Below, piece by piece: positions 5,020 through 38,675 of a stretch of DNA of 64,000 nucleotides. The translations under genes and the position numbers were made by a program. Under the pieces are notes generated by a model. That model saw only the letters and a program-made list of their open reading frames with translations, was not told the origin of the DNA and made no database searches. The stretch's first letter is position 1. Each line of letters begins with the position of its first letter. This DNA comes from Gammaproteobacteria bacterium (GTDB taxonomy: Bacteria > Pseudomonadota > Gammaproteobacteria > Pseudomonadales > Azotimanducaceae), in NCBI GenBank assembly GCA_026708185.1, contig JAPOVK010000034.1, forward strand, positions 124,001 to 188,000, written 5' to 3'.

Positions 5020-5964
5020 ATGGACGAATTCGACCTGATCGACACGATGGTCGAGATCCTCGGCGACGTGGCCACGGGCACCGAGGTCGTGGTCGGGCCC
5101 GGGGACGACGCAGCGGTGCTCGAGGTGCCGACCGACCATCAGCTCGTCGTGTCCACCGACACGCTGGTCGCGGGGCGCCACTTCCCGGCGAACGGCCAAG
5201 CGGACGTGATCGGCTATCGCGGCATGGCCGTGGCCACATCCGACCTCGCCGCCATGGGCGCGACACCGGCCTACGCCACCGTCGCGTTGACCATCGAAAG
5301 CCTGCCCGAACACTGGGCCCGCCCGTACGCGGCCGGCATCGCCTGGGCGGCGCGGGATTTCCGCCTTGCCGTCGTCGGCGGCAATGTCGCAAGGGGCCCC
5401 TGCAGCATCACGGTCACCGTGCATGGCCACGTCCCCGCCGGACAGGCCATCACGCGTGCGGGGGCACAACCGGGCGATCGGGTCTACGTGACCGGCTCGC
5501 TGGGCGGCGCGAGCCTGGCCCTGGCCGAGCCTGGCCTCGAGAGCTGCGGCTTGCGCGACCTCAACGACGAAACGGCGCTGCGCCGCTACTGGATGCCAGC
5601 GCCGCGGCTCGCCTTCGCCCAAGCCTTGCGCGGCATCGCCAACGCCGCCATCGACATTTCGGACGGGCTGTCGTCCGACCTCGCCCACCTTTGCCAAGCA
5701 AGCGGCGTTGCCTGCCGGGTGGACCTTGCGCAACTCCCTCTTTTTGCAGGCTGCGAGGCACTCGCCGCAGCCACATCGGGCGACGACTACGAACTAGCCT
5801 TCACGGCACCAGCCGCGACCAGCGAGCGCATTGCGTCGCTCGCGCGGCAATCGGGAGTCGCCGTCCAGGACATCGGAACGGTGAGCACCGGCCAATCCGG
5901 GCGCATCGAATGGCTTCACGACGGTGCTCCCGTCGTCGTGCCGCGGGGCTATCGTCATTTCTAG
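5020..5964 (+). CDS. thiL: Thiamine-monophosphate kinase ThiL
   Basis: ThiL phosphorylates thiamine monophosphate to the active cofactor TPP. The 314-residue product has the PurM-like fold motifs: VGPGDDAAVL, STDTLVAGRHF, GYRGMAVATSDLAAMGATP, DISDGLSSDLAHL and SGDDYELAF. The ATG at 5020 lies four bases after the nusB stop and begins MDEFDLI, the typical start. It overlaps pgpA downstream. It is one of two thiamine-linked loci in the window, the other being the TPP riboswitch near 58.7 kb. Confidence 0.96.
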   Translation: MDEFDLIDTMVEILGDVATGTEVVVGPGDDAAVLEVPTDHQLVVSTDTLVAGRHFPANGQADVIGYRGMAVATSDLAAMGATPAYATVALTIESLPEHWARPYAAGIAWAARDFRLAVVGGNVARGPCSITVTVHGHVPAGQAITRAGAQPGDRVYVTGSLGGASLALAEPGLESCGLRDLNDETALRRYWMPAPRLAFAQALRGIANAAIDISDGLSSDLAHLCQASGVACRVDLAQLPLFAGCEALAAATSGDDYELAFTAPAATSERIASLARQSGVAVQDIGTVSTGQSGRIEWLHDGAPVVVPRGYRHF

Positions 5965-7102: not shown

Positions 7103-8575
7103 ATGCCACCAGAGAAGACCTCCGACAGCGCCAGGCAACCCGGTCTCGCCGTGGCACTAGTGCCGGTCGCGCTGACCCTCGCGATTCTCGCCCTGCAGTT
7201 GTTCTACTTCGGCGACTTCACGCCGCACATCCCCCTCGCATTCGGGATCGCCATCACGGCGCTGCTCGGCGTCGCGCTTGGGCGGACCTGGCGAGACCTC
7301 GAAGGCGGCATCTTCCACGTGATCAACGTGTCCCTGCCGTCGGTGTCGATCCTGATCATCGTCGGCATGCTGATCGGGACCTGGATCGCCGGTGGCACCG
7401 TGCCGAGCCTCATCTACTACGGGTTGATCCTGCTGTCCCCGGAGGTCTTCCTCGCCGCGGCCATGATCCTTTGCGCGGTGGTCTCGGTGTCGCTGGGCAC
7501 GTCCTGGGGTACGGTCGGCACGGTCGGACTCGCGCTCATGGGAATCGGCGCCGGCTTCGGCATTCCGCCCTACTGGACCGCCGGCGCGGTGGTGTCGGGC
7601 GCCTTCTTCGGCGACAAGGTCTCGCCGCTGTCCGACACCACCAATCTCGCGCCCGCAGTCACGGGGGCCAAGCTCTTCGACCACATCCGCAACCTAATGC
7701 CGACGACCGTCCCGGCCATGCTCGTCGCCTTGGTCATCTACACCGCGGTCGGGTTCACGCTTGTGGACAGCGACCAAGCCTCCTTCGTCCGCATCCACGC
7801 CATCACCTCGGCACTCCAGGCCGGGTTCGACATCTCGCCGTGGATGCTCGCACCGGCGGCGCTTGTTATCGCCCTCGCGGTGACGAAGAACCCACCGATC
7901 CCGTCGCTCTTCGCCGGCGCGGTCGCCGGTGGGCTACTCGCCATCCTCGCCCAAAGCGAGGGCCTACACGACACGTTCACGTTCGCCAACGACGGCTACA
8001 CCATGGACACCGGTGTCGAAGAGATCGACACCTTGCTGAGCCGGGGAGGGATCCAATCCATGATGTGGACGATTTCGCTCGTTCTGCTCGCCCTCGGGTT
8101 CGGGGGCGCACTCGAGCGGACTGGCTGTTTGCAGGCGATCATCGGCGCTCTGATCAAACGGGTGAAAGGCTTCGCAGGAATTCAGACGTCGGCAACCGCC
8201 GCTGCAGTCTCAACGAATCTGGTCGCCGGCGACCCGTACCTGTCCATCGCCCTGCCGGGCCGGATGTTCGCCCCGGTGTACCGCGGCATGGGCTACTCGA
8301 CGCTGAACCTCTCGCGCGCGGTCGAGGAAGGCGGCACGCTAATCTCGCCGTTGGTCCCGTGGAATGCCGGGGGTGCCTTCGTCATCACGGCCTTAGCCCT
8401 CGGCATCCGCGAGGGCGAACTGATCAACCTGCTCTACATCCCTTTCGCGTTCGCCTGCTGGCTTTCGCCACTGATCGGCATCACCTACGCAGCGACCGGC
8501 AAGTTCTCGCCCAAGGCCAGTGCCGACGAGGAAGCGGAGTGGGCCCGCCAGGGCGAGGAGATCCGCGCGATTTAG
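7103..8575 (+). CDS. NhaC-family Na+/H+ antiporter
   Basis: A 490-residue polytopic inner-membrane protein with about eleven hydrophobic segments. The sequence SWGTVGTVGLALMGIGAGFG and the acidic GDKVSPLSDTTNLAPAVTGA are hallmarks of the NhaC family (Na+/H+ or malate/lactate exchange). The GDPYLSIALPGRMF and VPWNAGGAFV segments also fit. I chose the ATG at 7103 (MPPEKT); a start 30 bases upstream is in frame but adds an atypical leader. It is divergent from the small gene/xseB pair, across a 135-base gap that must hold both promoters. Confidence 0.9.
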   Translation: MPPEKTSDSARQPGLAVALVPVALTLAILALQLFYFGDFTPHIPLAFGIAITALLGVALGRTWRDLEGGIFHVINVSLPSVSILIIVGMLIGTWIAGGTVPSLIYYGLILLSPEVFLAAAMILCAVVSVSLGTSWGTVGTVGLALMGIGAGFGIPPYWTAGAVVSGAFFGDKVSPLSDTTNLAPAVTGAKLFDHIRNLMPTTVPAMLVALVIYTAVGFTLVDSDQASFVRIHAITSALQAGFDISPWMLAPAALVIALAVTKNPPIPSLFAGAVAGGLLAILAQSEGLHDTFTFANDGYTMDTGVEEIDTLLSRGGIQSMMWTISLVLLALGFGGALERTGCLQAIIGALIKRVKGFAGIQTSATAAAVSTNLVAGDPYLSIALPGRMFAPVYRGMGYSTLNLSRAVEEGGTLISPLVPWNAGGAFVITALALGIREGELINLLYIPFAFACWLSPLIGITYAATGKFSPKASADEEAEWARQGEEIRAI

Positions 8576-9138: not shown

Positions 9139-9447
9139 TCAACCCGACGCCGACAAGCGGCTGTCGCCCGCCAGCGATGGCAAACGTCCGATCTCTGCGC
9201 CGTGATCGCGTTCGGCCAGCCTCAACTCGTACACCTTCTGCAGGTTGAGCCAGAACTCGCCCGATGTTCCGAAGAACTGTCCCAGACGCAGCGCGGTGTC
9301 GCCCGTGACGGCGCGCTGGCCGTTCAGGATCTGCGTGATGCGATTCACTGGCACCTCGATCCGCCGAGCCAGTTCCGCCGCGCTCATGCCGAGCGCTTCA
9401 AGGTCATCGCGCAGCGTCTCGCCGGGGTGTAACGGTTCCCGCGTCAT
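9139..9447 (-). CDS. higA: HigA-family antitoxin (copy 1)
   Basis: A 102-residue HigA-type antitoxin with a Cro/C1 helix-turn-helix: LHPGETLRDDLEALGMSAAE, then the recognition region VPVNRITQILNGQRAVTGDTA and RLGQFFGTSGEFWLNLQKVY. Such proteins bind the toxin HigB and repress their own operon. The ATG at 9447 begins MTREPLHPGE. The partner higB just upstream (9464-9665) is broken, so this antitoxin is an orphan. It is the closest gene to the tmRNA 3' end and is a diverged duplicate of the HigA part of the gene at 14411-15310. Confidence 0.9.
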   Translation of the reverse strand: MTREPLHPGETLRDDLEALGMSAAELARRIEVPVNRITQILNGQRAVTGDTALRLGQFFGTSGEFWLNLQKVYELRLAERDHGAEIGRLPSLAGDSRLSASG

Positions 9448-9662
9448 GTCCGGTCCTCCTCTATCAGTGGTAGTCGACGATCTGCACATTCGACGGGCCG
9501 GGGCTCCCGTCCCGCCACTCGAAGCAGAGTCGCCACTGATCGGTGATGCGTATGCTCCATTGATCCCTGCGATCGCCCTTCAACCTTACCAGGCGATTGC
9601 CCGGCCCGCGCCAAGTCGCGCAGTCCGGTCGCCGCGTCGACTTTGCGCGACGCAGTCCGCGC
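9146..9662. repeat. Direct repeat unit 1 (diverged higBA copy)
   Basis: This stretch aligns with 15006-15532 in the same orientation over about 500 bases. The identity looks like 80-85% by eye in the higA coding part and the higB C-terminal part, with small indels. The two copies are about 5.9 kb apart and bracket the accessory genes between the tmRNA and the GMC dehydrogenase. Confidence 0.75.
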
Positions 9663-9665
9663 CAA
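9464..9665 (-). pseudogene. Degenerate higB toxin (copy 1)
   Basis: Aligning this stretch with the intact higB at 15326-15607 shows the same gene in decay. The C-terminal half is preserved, ending at TGA 9464-9466 with VQIVDYH as in the intact copy. One extra C near 9601-9612 (CCCGGCCCGCGCC against CCCGGCCGCGCC) shifts the frame just after LRDLARAG. A further nine bases are missing before it, and the first 20 or so codons are not recognisable. The product would not fold as a RelE-like toxin. It sits immediately upstream of the intact higA copy 1. Confidence 0.75.
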
Positions 9666-9760
9666 GCCGCATGACCCCGTCGGGTTTCCCGATCTCCCTG
9701 CGGCGCTTCGTCCTCAATCAGCGTGCCGCAGTTCGTTCGGCGCTACCCGCGTGCCGAGCG

Positions 9761-10588
9761 CTACGAGGGCTGGCCCATGCTGGTCGTGCTTGACATGGAA
9801 GCAACCGTCGGGTCGTAGAATCCCAACCCGGCGTACATGTCGAAGGCAAGCAGACTCCTGACGTCCGGCGACAGCTCCGCGATGCGTTCCTGCGGCACGT
9901 CCAAATACTGGTTCTCCTCCTGCCGCACCCAGCCCAACGAATAGGTCAGGATCACGCCATAGCGCCACTCGTTTGACCTGTTCGCCCCCGCACCGTGCAG
10001 CGTTCCGCCCAGCCAGAACAGCACCGCGCCGGCCGGCATCTCGGCGCTCAGAATCTCGTCGGGCCTGGGCTTTCGGTCAGCAGGCCATTTATGACTCCCC
10101 GGCACCACCAGAGTGGCGCCGTTGTCCGCGCGGAACTCCGTCACCGCCCACATGCTGGCCACGATGATGTTGGGGCGCGGCAAGGGAAAGAAGGTGAACG
10201 AATCCTCCTCCCGATGCAGCACCTGCTCGCGCGCACCAGGACCGACTTCGACGGTAGCGGAGACATGCAACTGGTAGCCATGCTCGCCATTGGGCAGCAG
10301 GTGGGTGTCGCAGACGTGCCGGCTCAACGGGTGAGCGACGAGGCGGTCGGTGACGCTCGGGGAGCGCACGACCAGGGCGGAAACGCGTCGCGTGCGGCCG
10401 GGGTAGAACTTCGTCGGGTCATCCTCCTCAATCACCCGCGCGTTCGCCATGTGTGGCGCCAGCTCGTCCTTGATGGACTGCCGTAGTTGCGCGTCCATGA
10501 GTCCGGTGACTACGGCACATCCCGCTTCGCCCAACGCCTCGGCGATGTCGCTGGCGGACGTGCCGGCAGAAAACTGAGGTATAGACAT
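9761..10588 (-). CDS. Phytanoyl-CoA dioxygenase (PhyH) family protein 1
   Basis: A 275-residue member of the Fe(II)/2-oxoglutarate-dependent PhyH family. The jelly-roll core includes NGATLVVPGSHKWPADRKP and AVLFWLGGTLHGAGANRSNE, whose His would be the distal iron ligand. The first ligand site reads LHREED, so the usual HxD is HxE here (H125, E127). The C-terminal WVRQEENQYL segment is shared with the PhyH gene at 29087-30034, making the two paralogues. The ATG at 10588 has GAGAGAG upstream; the longer frame is noise. The substrate is unknown; this family hydroxylates many small molecules besides phytanoyl-CoA. Confidence 0.87.
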   Translation of the reverse strand: MSIPQFSAGTSASDIAEALGEAGCAVVTGLMDAQLRQSIKDELAPHMANARVIEEDDPTKFYPGRTRRVSALVVRSPSVTDRLVAHPLSRHVCDTHLLPNGEHGYQLHVSATVEVGPGAREQVLHREEDSFTFFPLPRPNIIVASMWAVTEFRADNGATLVVPGSHKWPADRKPRPDEILSAEMPAGAVLFWLGGTLHGAGANRSNEWRYGVILTYSLGWVRQEENQYLDVPQERIAELSPDVRSLLAFDMYAGLGFYDPTVASMSSTTSMGQPS

Positions 10589-10848
10589 CTGGTCTCTCTC
10601 CACTCTTCGAAACCGCGCCCGTCGCGGGCCCGTTGAAGGTCGGTGCACCACGCAAGCCGAAGCTGCTCTGAGCGGCGCGATAGCCTTGCTCGACACGCAT
10701 CATACCCGCCGGGTCCCCTAAAGAGCGGCCAGTGATGACGTCGGCGCGCATGAGATGTCGACGACCACGCCACGCCCGCTCGCGGCTCCCCAGCGCCCCA
10801 CCACGGCTGCGATCCAGTCGGTGCACTGCACATGCTGGCAGCGAGGAG

Positions 10849-10868
10849 GTATGTTATAACGTAACGTC
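10849..10868 (+). promoter_or_regulatory. Zur-like operator
   Basis: The segment GTATGTTATAACGTAACG contains the perfect palindrome GTTATAAC (10853-10860) with AT and GT flanks. It resembles the gammaproteobacterial Zur box, whose core is TGTTATAACATAACA. It lies 20-40 bases upstream of the zinc GTPase ATG, and the internal TATAAC could be the -10 element, so bound Zur would block RNA polymerase. Zur is the zinc-dependent repressor of zinc-scarcity genes. Confidence 0.6.
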
Positions 10869-10886
10869 CATTGGAGGCAGGCAGAC

Positions 10887-12104
10887 ATGGGATCACCTCT
10901 ACCCGTAACCGTACTGTCGGGGTTTCTCGGCGCCGGCAAGACGACGCTCATGAATCACGTGCTCAACAACCGTGAGGGGCTGCGGGTTGCGGTCATCGTG
11001 AACGACATGGGAGAGGTCAACATCGACGCCGACCTCCTCCGACAGGACGTGTCGCTCCAGCAAGTGGACGAGAAGCTTGTTGAGATGACCAACGGCTGCA
11101 TCTGCTGCACGCTTAGGGAGGACTTGCTCGTCGAGGTCGCGCGCCTCGCGGACGAGGGACGGTTCGACTACCTCCTCATCGAGTCGACCGGTGTCTCCGA
11201 GCCGTTGCCAGTGGCCGAGACATTCACGTTCGAGGATGAAATGGGCCGCTCGCTGTCTTCGGTGGCCAAGCTCGACACCATGGTGACCGTCGTCGACGCC
11301 TACAACTTCCCGCGGCTGATGGTCGAGGCCGAGAACCTCAAAGACAAGAACATGGAGGTCGGCGAGGACGACGAACGCAACATCGCCAATCTCCTCGTTG
11401 ACCAGGTCGAGTTCAGCAACGTCATCGTGGTGACGAAGACCGACTTGCTCAATGCCTCCCAAACTCGCGCCATGCTCGCCACACTCCGCCGCCTCAATCC
11501 CGGCGCCGAGGTGATCGTCGCGGACCACGGAAAGATCGAGCCAGCCGCCATTCTCGGCACAGCCAAGTTCGATATGGCCGAGGCCGCGAACGCGCCCGGC
11601 TGGCTGGCGGAACTCCGTGGCGAACACACGCCGGAGACCGAGGAATACGGTATCGGCAGCTTCGTCTACCAGGCGCGCCGGCCCTTCCACCCGCAGCGGC
11701 TCTACGACTTTCTCGTCGCGGGTTGGCGCCACGGCAACCTTGTTCGATCAAAGGGCTACTTCTGGTTAGCCTCGCGTTTCGATCAAGCGGGTTCATGGTC
11801 CCAGGCAGGCGGCATCATGAATCACGGATTCGCTGGCCTCTTCTGGTCAGCGGTGCCCGAGGATCAGTGGCCTGACGACACGGACCATAGAGTGCAGATT
11901 GAAAGCAAGTGCGAACCGCCATACGGCGACCGGCGTCAGGAGATCGTCTTCATCGGGCGAGGGCTCGACGAAGGGCAAGCAAGACGAGCACTGGATGCCT
12001 GCCTCCTCGATGAGAGAGAGCTTGGCGCCGGTCCGGATCGATGGAAACAGTTCCCCGATCCCTTCCCTCAATGGATCCGCGAAGTCGAGGAGGCAGGAGT
12101 CTGA
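10887..12104 (+). CDS. Zinc metallochaperone GTPase (COG0523, ZigA/YciC-like)
   Basis: A 405-residue GTPase of the CobW/COG0523 group, which delivers metal to client proteins at the cost of GTP. The Walker A GFLGAGKT is at residues 12-19, the metal-binding CXCC motif (C71-I-C-C74) follows, ESTGVSEP is present, and the CobW C-terminal domain starts near residue 250 ([20 protein letters not shown]). The SD GGAGG lies 10 bases before the ATG. The Zur-like palindrome upstream and the DUF1826 gene coupled downstream match the zinc-starvation pair of other Proteobacteria, so zinc is the likely metal. Confidence 0.9.
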
Positions 12105-12712
12105 TGCGACAAGTCACCGGTGGTCAGCTAGGCGACTTTGCAGCGATCTACGACGACGACGTGGAGATCGTCAGCGTGGCACGCCCAGAAGCGACAACTC
12201 ATGAAGCCTACGCTAGGCGTTTGATCAGTTCGCGTCACGTTCCGCAATTGCGGTGGGTCCAGGCTGCGGATGATCGCGAAGCCCCGGCGAGTGGGCTGCC
12301 AGCGACAATCGACGCCGACGTCCGTTCAGCGCTCGTCGATCAAATCGCTGAGGCGAGCGAGATGTTGGGCGAGCTGATCGGCTGTGAACGGGTCGGTGTT
12401 CGACTCGAGACGCTGAGCGCTCCCATGTGCCCGCGATTTCATGCGGACCATGTGCTCTGCCGGATGCTAATCACGCTCAGCGGAGCGGGCACGGAGTGGA
12501 TTCCCAACAGCGACGTCGACTGGGATGTTTTCTCCAATCTCGAAACCACCGCACCACCCGTCCAAGCGGACCGGCAGGTCCAGCATATGACCACGGGCCA
12601 CTGGTCGCTGCTGAAAGGTGGCGCGTGGACCGATGGCTTTCGCGGTGTCGTGCACAGGTCTCCCCATGGCGTTGGTGAACGATTGCTTCTAGCGCTTGAC
12701 CCGGTTTTTTGA
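12104..12712 (+). CDS. DUF1826 domain protein, probable Zur-regulon partner
   Basis: A 202-residue soluble protein of the DUF1826 type. The conserved part is RVGVRLETLSAPMCPRFHADHVLCRML and GAGTEWIPNSDVDWDVF, then HRSPHGVGERLLLALDP. Its biochemical function is not established. The ATG overlaps the stop of the COG0523 GTPase by one base (CTGATG), so both genes are made from one message and would share Zur control. The RFHADH segment has the look of a metal site, but that is inference. Confidence 0.8.
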   Translation: MRQVTGGQLGDFAAIYDDDVEIVSVARPEATTHEAYARRLISSRHVPQLRWVQAADDREAPASGLPATIDADVRSALVDQIAEASEMLGELIGCERVGVRLETLSAPMCPRFHADHVLCRMLITLSGAGTEWIPNSDVDWDVFSNLETTAPPVQADRQVQHMTTGHWSLLKGGAWTDGFRGVVHRSPHGVGERLLLALDPVF

Positions 12713-28866: not shown

Positions 28867-29085
28867 ATGGCCAAATGGTTGCTCTTCCTCTTCGCCGTGC
28901 TCGTACTCGCCCTCATCCCGTGGGTCCCCGAACTGGTGCGGCTCAGGATTCGCTTTCTGCGGTGGATCCATTGGACGTGGGCGGCGGACTTCCTCGACGA
29001 CCACTTCACGGGTTGGTGCTGGTTCTTTCGTGCGGCACTCGCCTCGGTGGCGATCGTGCTGTTCTACATTGGATGGGCACTGTGA
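28867..29085 (+). CDS. Small membrane protein of unknown function
   Basis: A 72-residue protein with two hydrophobic helices: WLLFLFAVLVLALIPWVPEL at the N-terminus and ASVAIVLFYIGWAL at the C-terminus. The middle is rich in Trp and Arg. I do not recognise a family. The ATG at 28867 begins MAKWLLF; the longer upstream frame is polar noise. It is one base upstream of the PhyH gene start and so probably in the same operon. Confidence 0.6.
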   Translation: MAKWLLFLFAVLVLALIPWVPELVRLRIRFLRWIHWTWAADFLDDHFTGWCWFFRAALASVAIVLFYIGWAL

Positions 29086-29086
29086 C

Positions 29087-30034
29087 ATGACGACCACCAC
29101 CATCGCGACCCACGACTCGAGTGAACCGGCGGAGGCCGTCGTCGCCACGTTGCGCCGCGACGGCGCCGTGGTGGTCGCCAACCTCGTCGCGCCCGAGGAC
29201 ATGGACCAACTCACGGCTGATCTCAAGTTCGGCGACGAGACCAAGGCCGGCAACGACTTCATCGGCGGTTCCGACAACCGGTCCATCGGTGCCGTGCTCC
29301 ACGCCAATCCCGAGCTATGCGAGACTCTGCTCGTCAACGAGCGCGTGCTGGAAGTCGCCGACAGCATCTTGCGGCCGGAGAAGCCGATGGCCGCATCGTC
29401 GCAACCGGTCAAGCGTGAGAAGACCCGACTCGCAACCTCGGACGACGGCTGCGCCCAATACTTAAGCGTGGCCGCGCCGCCCGAGAGCGGTCCCTACTGC
29501 CACCACTACCGCGTCGGGGCCTCGGTGTCGATCGAGGCGCGCACCGGCGGCGCGGTGCAGGTGCTGCACCGGGAGATGGCCATCTACGAGCCGTACGTCG
29601 CCCACGGCCCGAGCACCCGGGATTACATCCTGAACATGATGTGGGCGGGCTCCGACTTCACCATCGCCAACGGCGCCACGCGGCTCGTTCCAGGCAGCCA
29701 CCTGTGGCCCGCCGACCGAGTGGCCAACGAGAGCGAAGTGGCGCAGGCCGTCATGCCCAAGGGCTCCGTGCTCTTCTGGTTGTGCAGGACGCTCCACGGG
29801 CTGGGTGCCTGCAACAGCAAGACGAGCCGTACGGGCATATTCCACTCGCTCGTCGTCAACTGGCTCGCCCAGGAGGAGAACCAGTATCTCGCCTTCCCGC
29901 CCGAGGCCGCCTCACGGTTGTCCCTCAAGGCGCGCCAACTTCTGGGCTACCGTTCGAGCGGCACCTGCGGCTGGGTCAAGGGCCGCGATTCGTATGACCT
30001 CCTGGCGTCCGGAGCGAGCGGGCCGCTGGAATGA
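29087..30034 (+). CDS. Phytanoyl-CoA dioxygenase (PhyH) family protein 2
   Basis: A 315-residue PhyH-type Fe(II)/2-oxoglutarate oxygenase. The core includes NGATRLVPGSHLWPADRV and SVLFWLCRTLHGLGACNSKT. The first metal site reads VLHREM (H161, E163), an HxE instead of HxD, like its paralogue at 9761-10588. The C-terminal WLAQEENQYLAF is again shared. The ATG at 29087 begins MTTTTIATHD. Its stop overlaps the luciferase-like gene (ATGA), so both oxygenases are co-translated. The substrate is unknown. Confidence 0.9.
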   Translation: MTTTTIATHDSSEPAEAVVATLRRDGAVVVANLVAPEDMDQLTADLKFGDETKAGNDFIGGSDNRSIGAVLHANPELCETLLVNERVLEVADSILRPEKPMAASSQPVKREKTRLATSDDGCAQYLSVAAPPESGPYCHHYRVGASVSIEARTGGAVQVLHREMAIYEPYVAHGPSTRDYILNMMWAGSDFTIANGATRLVPGSHLWPADRVANESEVAQAVMPKGSVLFWLCRTLHGLGACNSKTSRTGIFHSLVVNWLAQEENQYLAFPPEAASRLSLKARQLLGYRSSGTCGWVKGRDSYDLLASGASGPLE

Positions 30035-33626: not shown

Positions 33627-34826
33627 TCAGTCCTTCGTCGGCACCCGGATATGTTCGTTCGCGTCCACCACCGTGTCGGCGTGCTTCTCGAGTTGCTCGA
33701 ACCCGTAGCGGTTGCGGCGGGCCGCGGCGGCCGCGCGGTCCAGTACGGCTGGGTGCAGCGTGTCGTGAACGTCGGGGCAGACGTGCCGGAAGAACGGCTG
33801 CACGTTCTCGGGCAGCGCGTTGTACTCGGCCAGCGACAAAGGTCGGCAGACGGTGTTGAAGACGCCGCCGGGCGCGTAGTCGTCCACGGACAGCCACCAC
33901 GGACACCAGCGGTTGACCACCGCGACGCGCTTGCGACCGGACGTATTGTGCATGGCGGAGGCGTGCCAGGTGCGCGAGTCCTGGATGAAGACGGAGCCTG
34001 CCTTGGCTGTGACCTGCATGTCGCCCGGGATCGGTGCCGTGACAGTGATGCCGTCGCTCGGCCCGCGCGGATTGCGCGGATCGCGATGGGAGCCGGGCAC
34101 GACCCAGGTGGCTGCCGAGTCCGCGTCCACGTCCGTGAGGTACCAGATCATCACCAGGCACATGGTGACGTCGGGGAACGGCTGGCGGATGCAACCGGCG
34201 TTCTGCAACGGCTGGTCCGAACCATAGGCGGAGAGGTCGTGGGGCCAGTCGGTGTGCCACTCCCGCGTGTCCGCGCGCCCGCGGTACTTCGCCCGGCCGA
34301 ATCCGCCGGGTTCTGCGTCCGAGCCCGCCGCGATCGGGCGCAGATGGAGTTGCGCGATCTTCAGGTGGTCATCCAGCACGCGGCGCGCCACGGCGGTGAT
34401 GACGGGGTGGGCGAGATACGGCGCATAGCGCGGTAGCCAGATGATGTCGTTCGGGGGCTTGGGTGGACGCCCGACGCGGCCCACGGGTCGCAGTTCGACT
34501 CCAGGCGGCGCCTTGTCGAGTACCGCTTTCATGGTCTCAACGGAAGGGCTCCCGTCCACGGCCGCGTCCAGGACTTCCCGGATGGCAGCCATGTTGCGCG
34601 AGATGGACGCTTCCGCGGCGTCGACCTCGTCGCGTATCAGCGGCACATCGTCGGGCGCGACAACGTCGTCGAGGACACAGAAGCCGTACCGGGCTAGCGC
34701 TTCCGCACAGCCAGCGACGGGGTCGGCGGCGGTCTCATGGGCGCTGAACGCGTACCCGCGCGTCCGGACGAGTTCGGCGGTGGCAGCGACCGGATCCACG
34801 GCGGCCGACTTATGTCCGCTCGACAT
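33627..34826 (-). CDS. Phytanoyl-CoA dioxygenase (PhyH) family protein 3
   Basis: A 399-residue PhyH member with a longer N-terminal part than its neighbours. The metal motif is EWHTDWPHD (HxD intact), the distal His lies in DSRTWHASAMHN, and ATWVVPGSHRDPRNPRGPSD is the core loop. An Arg for 2-oxoglutarate binding fits SGRKRVAVVNRW. I use the ATG at 34826 (MSSGHKS); the longer frame runs into a decayed vapBC module. The substrate is unknown. Confidence 0.88.
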   Translation of the reverse strand: MSSGHKSAAVDPVAATAELVRTRGYAFSAHETAADPVAGCAEALARYGFCVLDDVVAPDDVPLIRDEVDAAEASISRNMAAIREVLDAAVDGSPSVETMKAVLDKAPPGVELRPVGRVGRPPKPPNDIIWLPRYAPYLAHPVITAVARRVLDDHLKIAQLHLRPIAAGSDAEPGGFGRAKYRGRADTREWHTDWPHDLSAYGSDQPLQNAGCIRQPFPDVTMCLVMIWYLTDVDADSAATWVVPGSHRDPRNPRGPSDGITVTAPIPGDMQVTAKAGSVFIQDSRTWHASAMHNTSGRKRVAVVNRWCPWWLSVDDYAPGGVFNTVCRPLSLAEYNALPENVQPFFRHVCPDVHDTLHPAVLDRAAAAARRNRYGFEQLEKHADTVVDANEHIRVPTKD

Positions 34827-34834
34827 CCGGCGCG

Positions 34835-35107
34835 ACCGTCGCCCGGGACAAAGACCTGGTGCCACGACGTTCGTTGTCGACGACGAACCTCCTGGCGTCA
34901 TCGCTCACGTGCGGCACGCGTTTCCTCCACAGCGAGCTTGAGCGCATCGGCGGCGTCCAGTCGCGCATGGTCGCGAACTCCCGCAACCAACGAGCGTGAG
35001 CTGGCACGGGGCCTGAACTCGTGCAGGCGCAAGCTCTCGTCGATGATGGAACTTATCGAACGCTCTTGCCGGACCTGGCCGCCGAGCCGTCCCGTTCGTC
35101 GCCACAT
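34835..35107 (-). pseudogene. Relic of a vapBC-type toxin-antitoxin module
   Basis: A 69-codon frame (34898-35107) reads VRQERSISSIIDESLRLHEF then RSLVAGVRDHARLDAADALK, the helical part of an antitoxin, but its N-terminal strand is missing or shifted. Directly after it, near 34850-34905, removing one A would give RRFVVDTNVV, the invariant start of a VapC PIN toxin. In the present sequence it reads RRFVVDNERRG and then enters the PhyH gene. So the module looks frameshifted and truncated by the PhyH gene start. Confidence 0.5.
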
Positions 35108-35575
35108 TCAGATTCCCTCCGGCGCCATGCCCTTCCTAGCCAACTCGGCGAGCGCTTCGTCGGTCTTCTCAAGGTGCGCGAGACCCATGCCGCGCAGCAC
35201 GTGGTCGGCCTTCGTGTACTGGATCTTCGTGTACGTCGTGATCTCGACGCGGTTGCCCCAGGGATCGAGGAAGTCCATGAAGCGACCGTCGAGGAACTTG
35301 ACGCCCAATTCCTCGAGACGCTCGCGGGCGAGGTCCTTGTCGTCCACCGCGATTCCGAAATGGCGGCGGTCGTCCGGTCCTTGGCGGCGCCCCTTGGCGA
35401 AGTTGATGAACTGGTCGCCGAAGTAGACGAATGCCGCGGTGTCGCTGCGTCTCGCGATCTCGAAGGTAAGGAACGCGCCGTAGAAGTCGAGGGCGGCATC
35501 GATGTCGCCCACCTCCAGCGCGATGTGATTGATGCCCACGGCGCGGGCGCGCCGCGGTGTGGCTTCGTCGTTCAT
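35108..35575 (-). CDS. VOC/glyoxalase-family protein
   Basis: A 155-residue single-domain VOC protein. Metal ligands fit GINHIALEVGDI (His), DRRHFGIAVDDKDL (His) and GNRVEITTYT (Glu), so it probably binds a metal, unlike the secreted VOC at 2461. The ATG overlaps the stop of the GrdB-like selenoprotein gene by four bases, so it is translated with it. VOC proteins include isomerases, ring-cleaving dioxygenases and resistance proteins. Confidence 0.87.
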   Translation of the reverse strand: MNDEATPRRARAVGINHIALEVGDIDAALDFYGAFLTFEIARRSDTAAFVYFGDQFINFAKGRRQGPDDRRHFGIAVDDKDLARERLEELGVKFLDGRFMDFLDPWGNRVEITTYTKIQYTKADHVLRGMGLAHLEKTDEALAELARKGMAPEGI

Positions 35576-36804
35576 GACTCCTCCTGAACCCGGTCAAACC
35601 GGTGCAACTGGCGCCTAGGCACGAGAAGCGCGTTGCCGAGCATTCTGTATTCGCGGCCAGCCCGCCCCTGGCAGTGCTTGCGGATTTCGTTGAGCACGCG
35701 CGCCGCCACGGTTTCGCCCCAGAACCAGTCCTCCAGGCGAACCGGGTCCGTGGTCCCGCCCGGTTGCGCCGTTATGGACTCGTTGTAGTAGGCCTTCAAG
35801 TCCTCGCTCGCCATTTTCAGTGCGGCACCCAGCGATACGTCGGGCAGCGGATTGTCGGGCTCGCCGCCACGCGCGAACCCCGCGATGAAGTCGGCCACAG
35901 CCTCGGGAGTCAGACCCGTCGCGTCGGCCGTGGTGCGCCGCCTGCGCCACACGGCCTCGTCGTACCAGTTCCGCAACCCGTCCACCTCGGCCCGGAATGC
36001 GCGCAAGAGTTCGTCTTCAGCGTCGGCGGCGTCCGCGGCAAAGCGAACGGGGCAAGCCAGCGGCACATCCGGCGCGGCGCCGGTGGGTTCGTCGTCGGGA
36101 AAGTCCTCGAGTACCGGGCCTTCGGGGCGTTCCAGCAAGCCGAGGGCGGCCCGTAGTACGCGGGTTTGGAACACCGGGTTGCCGGGCGGACCCAGCGGTC
36201 GGCCCAGTTCGAACGGCACCCACAAGGCGCGCGGTGGCGCGATCCGTTCGGTATGGAGCCGGATCAGGCTGATCTGGGTCGTCGCGACGCCTTCCCGCTC
36301 AAGGTAGTGGCCGAGCGCGCCCACGGCACGCGTGCAGTTGGGTCAGACAGGAACCAGCAAGGCGGCATCGGCGCCCTCCTCGCGCATGATCCGCGCCAGG
36401 TCACGGGCCTGCGGCTCGAGGGCCAGAACGTCCGTCGCCCCCATGAACGAATAGTGGTGACGCGCCAAGCTGCCAATGTCTCCCGACGCGCACATTTCAC
36501 GCAGCCGGTCGAGCGGAAACACCACGTTCCAGTCCTGCTGAAAGCCGGTGCGGTCGTAGTTGGTCGACATGTGGCTCATCACCAGGTCGGCGGCGGGGGT
36601 GTCCTCCGGGATCAGCCGGTAATCCGCGGCACGCAGAGCGAAAGGCCTGTCGTCCCGCCGATGCAGACCCGCGGTCGAGATCAAAGCGACCTTTCGACGC
36701 GCGAGCGGCGGACCGACCACCCAAGGCGAGGCGTCGAACTTCGGACATGCCATGTCCACATAGTGCTTGCGCAACGCGGGTGTCATGCTGTCGAGGCGGG
36801 CCAC
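35572..36804 (-). CDS. GrdB-family selenoprotein (glycine/sarcosine/betaine reductase B-like), UGA read as Sec
   Basis: Two collinear frames in the same phase are separated by a single TGA (36343-36345) and no other stop over 410 codons. Read through, residues 150-160 are LVPV-U-PNCTRAV. This matches the UxxCTR active site of GrdB-type reductases, with U154 and C157. The first half has TPALRKHYVDMACPKFDASP and MSHMSTNYDRTGFQQDWNVV; the second has EREGVATTQISLIRLHTERI, PPRALWVPFELGRPLG, and the homology runs straight across the TGA. Downstream bases can fold into a hairpin (36320-36342). It overlaps the VOC gene. An ordinary gene caller would split it in two. The reaction is unknown; the glycine reductase system itself is not here. 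Confidence 0.85.
36320..36342 (-). promoter_or_regulatory. Candidate bacterial SECIS hairpin
   Basis: Directly after the UGA the message reads CCCAACUGCACGCGUGCC then GUGGG. CCCA plus C pairs with G plus UGGG, and inside it GCA pairs with UGC around a CGCG loop. A stem-loop just 3' of the UGA is what SelB needs to insert selenocysteine. The apical loop is somewhat nearer the UGA than in E. coli fdhF. Confidence 0.45.
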
Positions 36805-36912: not shown

Positions 36913-37806
36913 ATGAACGACCACGAGAAATACCTCTTCGACCTTCGCGGCTACATCGTCGTGAAGGGCGCACTGACACCCGCGCAGGTGGAGGACCTGT
37001 CCGAACGGCTGGAGGCGCGCCGCAAGGCCAAGGGCCGCTTAGGCTCCGACCGCACCATCTTCGGGGCGGAGGTGGGCCCCGCCTGGTCCGCGCCGTCGCT
37101 ATTGGAATGGGGCGGCACCTACATCGATCTCATCGACCTGCCTACCATAGCGCCGTACCTCGAGGTGCTGCTCGGGGTCGGCTACCGGTTGGACCATGAC
37201 TACATCAACGTGGTCAACGCCGAGCACCCGAGCAAGCTCTACCTGCACGGCGGGGGTCAAGGTGCGGGAGGGCCCAGGGACGTGGTCGGGCCGACCGACG
37301 GCGGCCAATGCTACTACCGCTACAACAACGGCCAGTTCTTCAATGGCCTGCTCACCGTCGCGTTCGAGCTCAATGACGTGACCCCGTCAAGCGGAGGCTT
37401 TGCGTGCGTCGCCGGCAGCCACAAGGGGAACTTCGCGCTCCCGGACGAGTGGCGGATCAGCGACAAGCAGGCCGACATCCCCGCGTGCGTCGATCGAGTC
37501 ACGGCCAAGTCGGGTGACGCCATCATCTTCACCGAGGCGTGCGCCCACGGCACGGTTCCTTGGGACGGAGGCGGCGAGCGGCGAACGATTTTCTACAAGT
37601 ACTGCCCGCATGCCGTGGCATGGGGTCCTTGCTACTACAACGCCGACCAATACGGTGACCTGACCGACAACCAACGCGCGATCCTGCACCCGCCAAGCGC
37701 GTTCGGGCCACACAGTCGTACGCTGGCGATTTGGCAGCGAGCCCAGGCGGAACAGGCCGAGCTAGTCAGGCTGCGCAAGGAGGTGGCGGAACTGAAAGGT
37801 GCCTAG
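36913..37806 (+). CDS. PhyH family protein 4 with HxG metal site (halogenase-like)
   Basis: A 297-residue PhyH-type protein: LFDLRGYIVVKGALTPAQVE opens it, GGFACVAGSHKGNFALP is the core loop and TEACAHGTVPW carries the distal His (H212), followed by GERRTIFYKY with the likely 2-oxoglutarate Arg. At the first metal site its neighbour 37851-38675 has LHAD, but here the aligned residues are LHGG (H112, G114). Loss of the carboxylate leaves an iron site open to chloride in known halogenases. A coiled tail (RAQAEQAELVRLRKEVAELK) ends it. The ATG 36913 was chosen by family alignment. Function is inference. Confidence 0.87.
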   Translation: MNDHEKYLFDLRGYIVVKGALTPAQVEDLSERLEARRKAKGRLGSDRTIFGAEVGPAWSAPSLLEWGGTYIDLIDLPTIAPYLEVLLGVGYRLDHDYINVVNAEHPSKLYLHGGGQGAGGPRDVVGPTDGGQCYYRYNNGQFFNGLLTVAFELNDVTPSSGGFACVAGSHKGNFALPDEWRISDKQADIPACVDRVTAKSGDAIIFTEACAHGTVPWDGGGERRTIFYKYCPHAVAWGPCYYNADQYGDLTDNQRAILHPPSAFGPHSRTLAIWQRAQAEQAELVRLRKEVAELKGA

Positions 37807-37850: not shown

Positions 37851-38675
37851 TCAGCTCGCCGCGGCTTCGAACTCCTCCGAGAACAGCGATGGGAAATGCG
37901 TGAGCGGCTCTCCTGGATCCGCAAGAAGCTGGCGCTGCCGCGGGCTCAGTTCGATCCCCTCCGGCGGCGTCACCCGGGTGCTGCCCCAACTCATGCTGGA
38001 CACGCAGTACTTGTAGAGCAGCGTGCGCCGTTCGTAGTCGCCGTCCCATCGCGCGGTGCCGTGGGTGAGCGCCTCGGTGAAGACCAGCAGGCTGCCCGCC
38101 GGCGCCTCGACGATCCGCACCCACGGACTGTCCTGGTGTGCCGCGTGGATGCCGCGCGGGATGCGGTACGAGCTCTTGTGGCTGCCCGGGATGCAGCAGA
38201 AGCCACCCACGTCCGGGCCGGTGTCGCGCAGGTTCCACGCGCCGACCATGAACCCGGCCTGCATGCGATTGTCGCGGAAGGGGAAGAACTCGCCCGGTCC
38301 GTTGCTGGCGTGCGGTGAACTGGCCCCGTAGTCCGCGTGCAGACGTCCGGCGGGCGATCCCTTGCGCATGTACATGCCGTAGAGGCGTTCGAGACGGAAG
38401 GCCTCGCCCAAGCGGAAACGCAGGATCGGCAGCAGGGCCGGGTGGTCCAGTAGGCGGGCGAACGGCTTGCCCCATTGCAGGAAGCCTGACCCGGTCTGCC
38501 GGGCCGCGCCCGCAGCCGACCCGAAGCGCGGAAAGTTGTCCGGCGGCGCGGGTAGGTCCTGGGCGTCGATCAAGGCGTTGAGTTCGGCGACTTCGACCGC
38601 GCTCAAGACGTCCTTGATGACCATGTAGCCGTTCAGATCGAACAGGTACTGCTGTTCCTCGAGTTCCGCGTCCAC
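37851..38675 (-). CDS. Phytanoyl-CoA dioxygenase (PhyH) family protein 5
   Basis: A 274-residue PhyH member in the same subfamily as the gene at 36913, with which it converges. The metal site is normal: RLHADYG (H113, D115), then GGFCCIPGSHKSSYRIPRG and TEALTHGTARW with the distal His, and ERRTLLYKY. The start is a GTG at 38675 with a very strong AAGGAGG site seven bases upstream; the much longer frame into the GST gene is a shadow. It is 11 bases downstream of the GST gene, so probably in its operon. Confidence 0.9.
   Translation of the reverse strand: MDAELEEQQYLFDLNGYMVIKDVLSAVEVAELNALIDAQDLPAPPDNFPRFGSAAGAARQTGSGFLQWGKPFARLLDHPALLPILRFRLGEAFRLERLYGMYMRKGSPAGRLHADYGASSPHASNGPGEFFPFRDNRMQAGFMVGAWNLRDTGPDVGGFCCIPGSHKSSYRIPRGIHAAHQDSPWVRIVEAPAGSLLVFTEALTHGTARWDGDYERRTLLYKYCVSSMSWGSTRVTPPEGIELSPRQRQLLADPGEPLTHFPSLFSEEFEAAAS

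Follow-up and report, generated by a model that had tools for sequence, protein, structure and literature searches.

In PrdB, the catalytic subunit of proline reductase, a selenocysteine (Sec) attacks a carbon with a leaving group, the cysteine of the UxxC motif resolves the product of this attack, and a dithiol reduces the bridge. Published records of PrdB-like selenoproteins go back to 2005, when a Sargasso Sea survey gave 42 Sec sequences, and the part of the 2008 GOS survey that deals with this family gave 235 Sec and 110 Cys PrdB sequences (PMC1088965, PMC2398784). In the same parts of these early marine surveys, PrdB-like genes were among the commonest selenoproteins and were named proline reductase (PMC1088965, PMC2398784). 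The likeness of these marine 'Proline reductase PrdB' selenoproteins to the protein described here lay in the PrdB name, the UxxC motif and the many marine Sec copies. The sections on PrdB in these surveys reported Cys homologues, whereas the long form described here had Sec in all of its 45 homologous loci; the survey sequences may include long forms. Another relative, FarB/FarE of Cloacibacillus, was a proposed fluoroacetate reductase according to the relevant part of its description (PMC10838667). There, FarB was GrdB-like with a predicted Sec, its proposed substrate was not an amine, and its partner was without cysteines for a pyruvoyl group (PMC10838667). As presented in that part, FarB kept FarE as a GrdE-like partner and its organism had glycine reductase, whereas the genome studied here gave no PF09338 match.

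Here we describe a gene that, judging from its sequence and its relatives, almost certainly codes for a selenoprotein that belongs to the superfamily of PrdB/GrdB catalytic subunits. This kind of protein was already known, and the long, apparently partnerless, Sec-only form was a variant of it. The literature that we searched on PrdB-like and GrdB-like selenoproteins did not describe the long form.

The in-frame TGA and its conservation

The window, that is, the whole stretch of 64,000 nucleotides that was analyzed, contained two minus-strand frames in the same phase, one of 153 aa with a GTG start (36804-36343) and one of 250 aa (36324-35572). An ORF check confirmed the preliminary description in that a single TGA (36345-36343) separated them and that readthrough, which gave 410 aa, read LVPV-U-PNCTRAV with Sec as residue 154. 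The terminal stop of the gene was another TGA (35574-35572), and an in-phase GTG stood downstream of the in-frame TGA. The preliminary description had placed the gene at the correct interval and had given no strand; the gene was on the minus strand, and a plus-strand reading of the interval was not this protein. The coordinates of the features are collected in Table 1.

Table 1. Features of the PrdB-like selenoprotein locus and of the related genes in the same genome
Feature	Position	Strand	Details
PrdB-like selenoprotein gene	35572..36804	-	410 aa; GTG start at 36804; predicted Sec codon 154; C-terminal helical domain (long form)
In-frame TGA (predicted Sec154)	36343..36345	-	TGA in the window and in 45/45 homologous loci; same alignment position as the TGA in an annotated prdB
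SECIS-like hairpin	36315..36331	-	starts 11 nt past the UGA; fold, pair counts, silent-site constraint
C-terminal part	35575..36060	-	loop of low confidence with the invariant Cys251, followed by an all-helical domain; no family match
VOC (glyoxalase/FosA-like) gene	35108..35575	-	PF00903, 43.3 bits
PrdB-like selenoprotein gene L066	own genome, C8:6976-8070		one in-frame TGA
PrdB-like selenoprotein gene L065	own genome, C56:42573-43235		one in-frame TGA
PrdB-like selenoprotein gene L068	own genome, C47:114194-114814		one in-frame TGA

The G+C content was 66% over the 21 kb surrounding the gene. Counting this one, 15 TGA codons across the window's six frames were preceded by at least 140 open codons and followed by at least 240. 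Since comparable open frames around a TGA were that common, we rejected the two flanking frames as proof of Sec; the frame-phase argument alone was weak and homology was needed to decide. A claim that homology continued on both sides of the TGA was borne out by one alignment to the PrdB profile TIGR04483, which spanned the codon in one piece (residues 32-225, E 3.6e-29) and scored 101.9 bits, missing the cut-off of 300.

When one genome of each species was scanned with six search patterns, none of which covered the Sec site, 45 related loci were obtained. The motif scan showed the TGA in 42 of them, and a recount that added the other three (L034, L053, L063) placed a TGA at the aligned codon in 46 of 46 sequences, the window included. 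None of the 45 loci carried a long form with Cys; by their record titles they came from Pseudomonadota, Thermodesulfobacteriota, Chloroflexota and Actinomycetota among others. Selenium therefore seemed essential to the chemistry of the long form. The nearest relative, locus L020, was 89% identical, and together with the TGA in all 46 sequences this made a read-level error at the TGA, which the preliminary description had considered, very unlikely. The U-x-x-C-T-R motif named there was largely upheld: UPxCT was common to 39 aligned relatives, and the R was nearly, not fully, invariant. Many residues outside the motif were also invariant in these relatives.

Selenocysteine machinery

The genome of the window (5.13 Mb in 65 contigs, 97.08% complete) encoded the complete Sec machinery; all four genes for which the preliminary description had suggested a search (selA, selB, selD and tRNA-Sec) scored over their cut-offs. 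The tRNA-Sec (68.8 bits; ARAGORN anticodon tca) adjoined selB (385.1 bits), which in turn adjoined selA (544.6 bits), and selD (250.1 bits) was located elsewhere on the same contig (C3:379969-380874, locus L018). This selD was within a 775-aa open frame and may be fused to another domain. A second match to the selD profile in the window itself (about 5083-5772, plus strand; 64.7 bits) was under the cut-off and was perhaps another PurM-like protein. For 37 of the 45 loci, the genome was searched for selA, which was over the cut-off in 35, a fragment in one and absent from one; the corresponding figure was 52 of 398 genomes in a sample of the phylum, the window's own included, a comparison that was unmatched because the homologues spanned several phyla and the sample came from one.

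The hairpin that the preliminary description had noted just 3' of the UGA was present at 36331-36315, and its silent sites were frozen; its own stability was unremarkable. The 7-bp stem paired 36331-36325 with 36321-36315, and the 3-nt loop started 18 nt past the UGA. This position was judged against the usual spacing range of bacterial SECIS elements. The stability of the window's hairpin did not exceed that of dinucleotide shuffles (z +1.05) or of synonymous recodings (z +0.35), so it was rejected as proof of a SECIS, and the best fold of the hairpin differed when 51 nt instead of 48 nt were given. Across 44 sequences compared with synonymous recodings, the mean z was -1.06, with 38 values negative and 11 at p < 0.05.

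Base pairing was analyzed in an alignment of 43 sequences (42 distinct) covering 54 nt from the UGA, in which the stem was formed by columns 15-21 with 25-31. The 7-bp pairing held in 91.5% of the alignment cells, a value reached by 10 of 500 shuffles, and dropped to 30-61% when the partner strand was slid. Two-sided changes occurred at three of the seven pairs, in one sequence each (three such pairs were reached by 1/500 shuffles). The covariation score was likewise reached by one shuffle in 500, and the number of pair types by 115/500. Pair 17-29 failed in 15 of 42 sequences and pair 21-25 in 7 of 42; RNAalifold alone predicted five of the stem pairs, with a small covariation term (-0.16).

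Conservation of silent sites was a stronger sign of a SECIS than covariation. When third-base entropy was computed at the 137 four-fold codon columns of the gene, the three lowest values belonged to codons 162, 163 and 160, and codons 158 and 159 ranked fifth and seventh. The third bases of these five codons were all in the stem, and codons 161 (in the loop) and 164 (past the stem) varied freely at the third base. The mean entropy of codons 158-164 was 0.78 versus 1.54 over all 137 columns (p 0.0003). We considered it very likely that the SelA, SelB, SelC and SelD of this genome insert Sec at UGA 154, with the hairpin directly downstream acting as the SECIS element.

Relation to PrdB and GrdB

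The preliminary description had called the gene GrdB-like. This label held insofar as the protein passed the gathering score of the Pfam GRDB family (PF07355; 30.5 bits versus 22, residues 34-151). Its nearest named relative was PrdB, since the GrdB-type models gave 40.7-48 bits, the lowest being TIGR01917 with a cut-off of 602.2. All five matching NCBIfam models of the PrdB/GrdB type stayed under their cut-offs, and for this reason the long form may well be annotated as two fragments. In the GrdB/F/H group (PF07355, TIGR01917, TIGR01918, NF040794, NF040795), only the C-terminal part of the models aligned with the window protein.

The annotated PrdB of Peptoclostridium acidaminophilum was 37% identical over 195 aa and shared the UxxC site, with both TGA codons aligned. 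That protein had 237 aa, whereas the window protein had 410 aa with an extra helical domain. In addition, a PF09338 gene was located just upstream of the P. acidaminophilum prdB, whereas a profile search of the window's genome for this PrdA/GrdE-type partner gave no match. The clostridial record with prdB served as positive control and was matched by PF09338 three times (675, 673.5 and 78.2 bits), the weakest match being the prdA-like gene next to prdB. This agreed with an earlier statement that the gene was far from any glycine reductase operon. A diverged partner could be missed, since the prdA-like control itself scored so low and the genome was 97.08% complete. GrdA (PF04723) also gave no match in this genome, in a search without a positive control that matched. 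The window protein was apparently without a PrdA/GrdE-type partner.

An AlphaFold2 model built from 39 sequences (pLDDT 86.6) consisted of an alpha/beta part, in which Sec154 was placed between strand 147-151 and helix 155-170, and an all-helical part of about 150 extra residues from residue 262 onward. Modeled alone, the C-terminal part reached a pLDDT of 90.2. Foldseek searches of the PDB returned no match at E <= 0.001 for the whole protein (best 0.022) or for the C-terminal domain (best 0.73), no PDB entry reached an E below 0.7 in sequence searches, and the helical domain had no family match. The Sec site, Cys157 and Cys251 were identical in 39 of 39 rows of the alignment. Cys251 was inside the low-confidence segment 243-260 of the model, a loop that need not be mobile, and the equivalent position was not Cys in PrdB or in the three short forms of the alignment. 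The chemistry was probably similar to that of the proline reductase catalytic subunit; the C-terminal domain and Cys251, absent from PrdB, may point to a different one.

The short sister family

Four PrdB-like selenoprotein genes, the window's included, were found in the same genome. Of the three others, one was a long form (UPLCTR, 36% identical) and two were short forms (UPVCHQ). The proline reductase label did not fit here, where the genome had four genes of this kind and no PrdA-type partner could be detected. The short proteins of the window's phylum, mostly in frames of about 310-340 aa with the motif [U/C]P[V/I]CHQ, resembled the window protein in the N-terminal domain and the site, and often had Cys in place of Sec, whereas the long form had Sec only. 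One of them was labeled 'glycine/sarcosine/betaine reductase selenoprotein B family protein' (record H1).

In the sample of the phylum, the long-form profile matched 16 of 398 genomes. The window's own genome gave four matches with one TGA each, and genome G139, in which selA was present, gave a further two, each with TGA. In the other 14 genomes there were 15 matches, none with a TGA and every one with Cys at the Sec site; of these 14 genomes, one (G289) had selA and 13 had no selA match at E 1e-60. Short-form matches in the 15 genomes other than the window's own stopped at or before position 231 of the long-form profile. In a phylogenetic tree, the short form was a clade apart from the long form (support 100/97); this tree carried a long-branch warning, with L065, L066 and L068 among the long branches. 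Homologues thus had Cys or Sec at residue 154, as a preliminary test of the idea had called for, with Sec in the 45 long-form loci and Cys in the short sister family only. The earlier view of the gene as a probable selenoprotein was supported by the Sec machinery, the conserved Sec and the Cys of the sister family.

Genomic neighborhood

The ATG of the adjacent VOC gene overlapped the selenoprotein stop by 4 nt. The coupling of the two genes, noted in the preliminary description, was real but restricted to a single clade of gammaproteobacteria (7 of 46 loci). In this clade a close VOC homologue was downstream of the selenoprotein gene in 7/7 loci, and a profile of these homologues had no match among the ORFs of the 39 remaining loci, including two that ended just past the match. 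An operon partner conserved across phyla was not seen in the loci and was rejected, the VOC homologue being present in one clade only. Another VOC-type gene was located upstream in locus L032.

In the window, the setting was catabolic, with class III CoA-transferase, enoyl-CoA hydratase, GST and amidohydrolase genes near the selenoprotein gene. Four PhyH-type dioxygenase genes were within 10 kb (29030-30034 and 36913-37806 on the plus strand, 33627-34901 and 37854-38675 on the minus strand). In 8 loci of Desulfobacterota-type relatives (L036, L037, L040, L043, L061 and others), a helix-turn-helix gene of one cluster was near the selenoprotein gene. In L061 (region 9271-12263), the encoded helix-turn-helix protein included a MEDS domain (DcmR sensory), and its gene was followed by two others, for a membrane protein with a VTT domain and for a pyridine nucleotide-disulphide oxidoreductase. 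Redox genes near other relatives included an AhpD/CMD-like gene (L036) and an FMN reductase gene (L042).

Possible function

The best overall explanation was a selenoprotein of the PrdB/GrdB superfamily that performs a PrdB-like reduction of a carbon with a leaving group and has no PrdA/GrdE-type partner, to which we assigned a probability of roughly 0.6. In the corresponding scheme, the Sec154 selenolate would displace a leaving group from a small substrate by attack on an electrophilic carbon. Cys157 of the UxxC motif would then resolve the selenoether, giving the reduced product and a Se-S bridge, and Cys251 would feed electrons from a thioredoxin- or glutathione-like dithiol. The substrate would carry a good leaving group of its own or would be activated by other invariant residues; activation as an imine on a pyruvoyl-type partner was unlikely because no PrdA/GrdE-type subunit that would be the pyruvoyl precursor was found. 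As one reaction scheme, the attack by Sec, the resolution by Cys157 and the electron entry at Cys251 were given slightly less than even odds. The PrdB and GrdB descriptions used here come from the relevant parts of PMC13188914 and PMC10838667. We tentatively suggest that the VOC protein, which is co-made in one gammaproteobacterial clade, acts on the same substrate or product. A broader idea, somewhat more doubtful, was that the long forms make up a single-chain, Sec-only family of reductive-cleavage enzymes in several phyla, with no pyruvoyl partner, an added helical domain and a third redox-active Cys. The substrate could then be, for example, an organohalide, a sulfur compound or an amine; the organohalide was named because of the DcmR-like MEDS-type regulator near the gene in some relatives. 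Identification of the substrate would show the role of such Sec reductases where the partners of proline or glycine reductase are missing.

The main rival was a plain redox role, in which the selenoprotein would be a thiol-disulfide oxidoreductase or a peroxidase whose UxxC couple acts on a peroxide, a disulfide or an oxidised small molecule and cuts no carbon-heteroatom bond. Such a role would agree with the motif and its invariant resolving Cys, with the failure to find a pyruvoyl-type partner in the genome and with the AhpD/CMD-like, FMN reductase and pyridine nucleotide-disulphide oxidoreductase genes of some relatives. We regarded it as unlikely, since the homologues are subunits of substrate-cleaving reductases, many residues beyond the motif were invariant, and the Foldseek result left no thioredoxin-fold match.

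It was still less probable that the gene encodes a true subunit of D-proline (or glycine, sarcosine or betaine) reductase, with its partners located elsewhere or too diverged to be recognized. PrdB was the best named family, at 37% identity to an annotated member, and the 78.2 bits of the prdA-like control left room for such divergence. However, the curated cut-offs were far off (101.9 versus 300 for PrdB, 40.7 versus 602.2 for GrdB), the search for PF09338, whose control worked, had no match in a genome that was 97% complete, and the helical domain of about 150 residues was extra. A real stop at the TGA, which would leave a pseudogene or two separate proteins, was extremely improbable and already contradicted: the TGA was present in all 45 loci over several phyla, the Sec machinery was complete, silent sites beside the TGA were frozen, and UxxC was invariant in 39 rows. 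These observations outweighed the ordinary stability of the window's hairpin, the in-phase GTG past the TGA and the 15 TGA codons, this one counted, with comparable flanking frames.

Other observations

A PHROGs search with the protein gave no match, and 24 of 72,556 plasmid records matched it, none covering more than 80% of its length. Three of the 45 copies looked broken. L044 had an internal TAA near 8383; pyrrolysine had been suspected there on the assumption of a TAG and was rejected, since the codon was TAA and PylS was under its cut-off. L062 (6081-8696) consisted of two matched pieces about 1.4 kb apart, and the copy in L063 (5787-7259) was degenerate past the Sec site. In the short sister family, a class III CoA-transferase gene was downstream of a Sec copy (L095, 4843-7039; Pfam) and, as judged by eye from the translations, also beside the Cys copies in L071, L076 and L078, which may hint that the substrates are handled as CoA esters.
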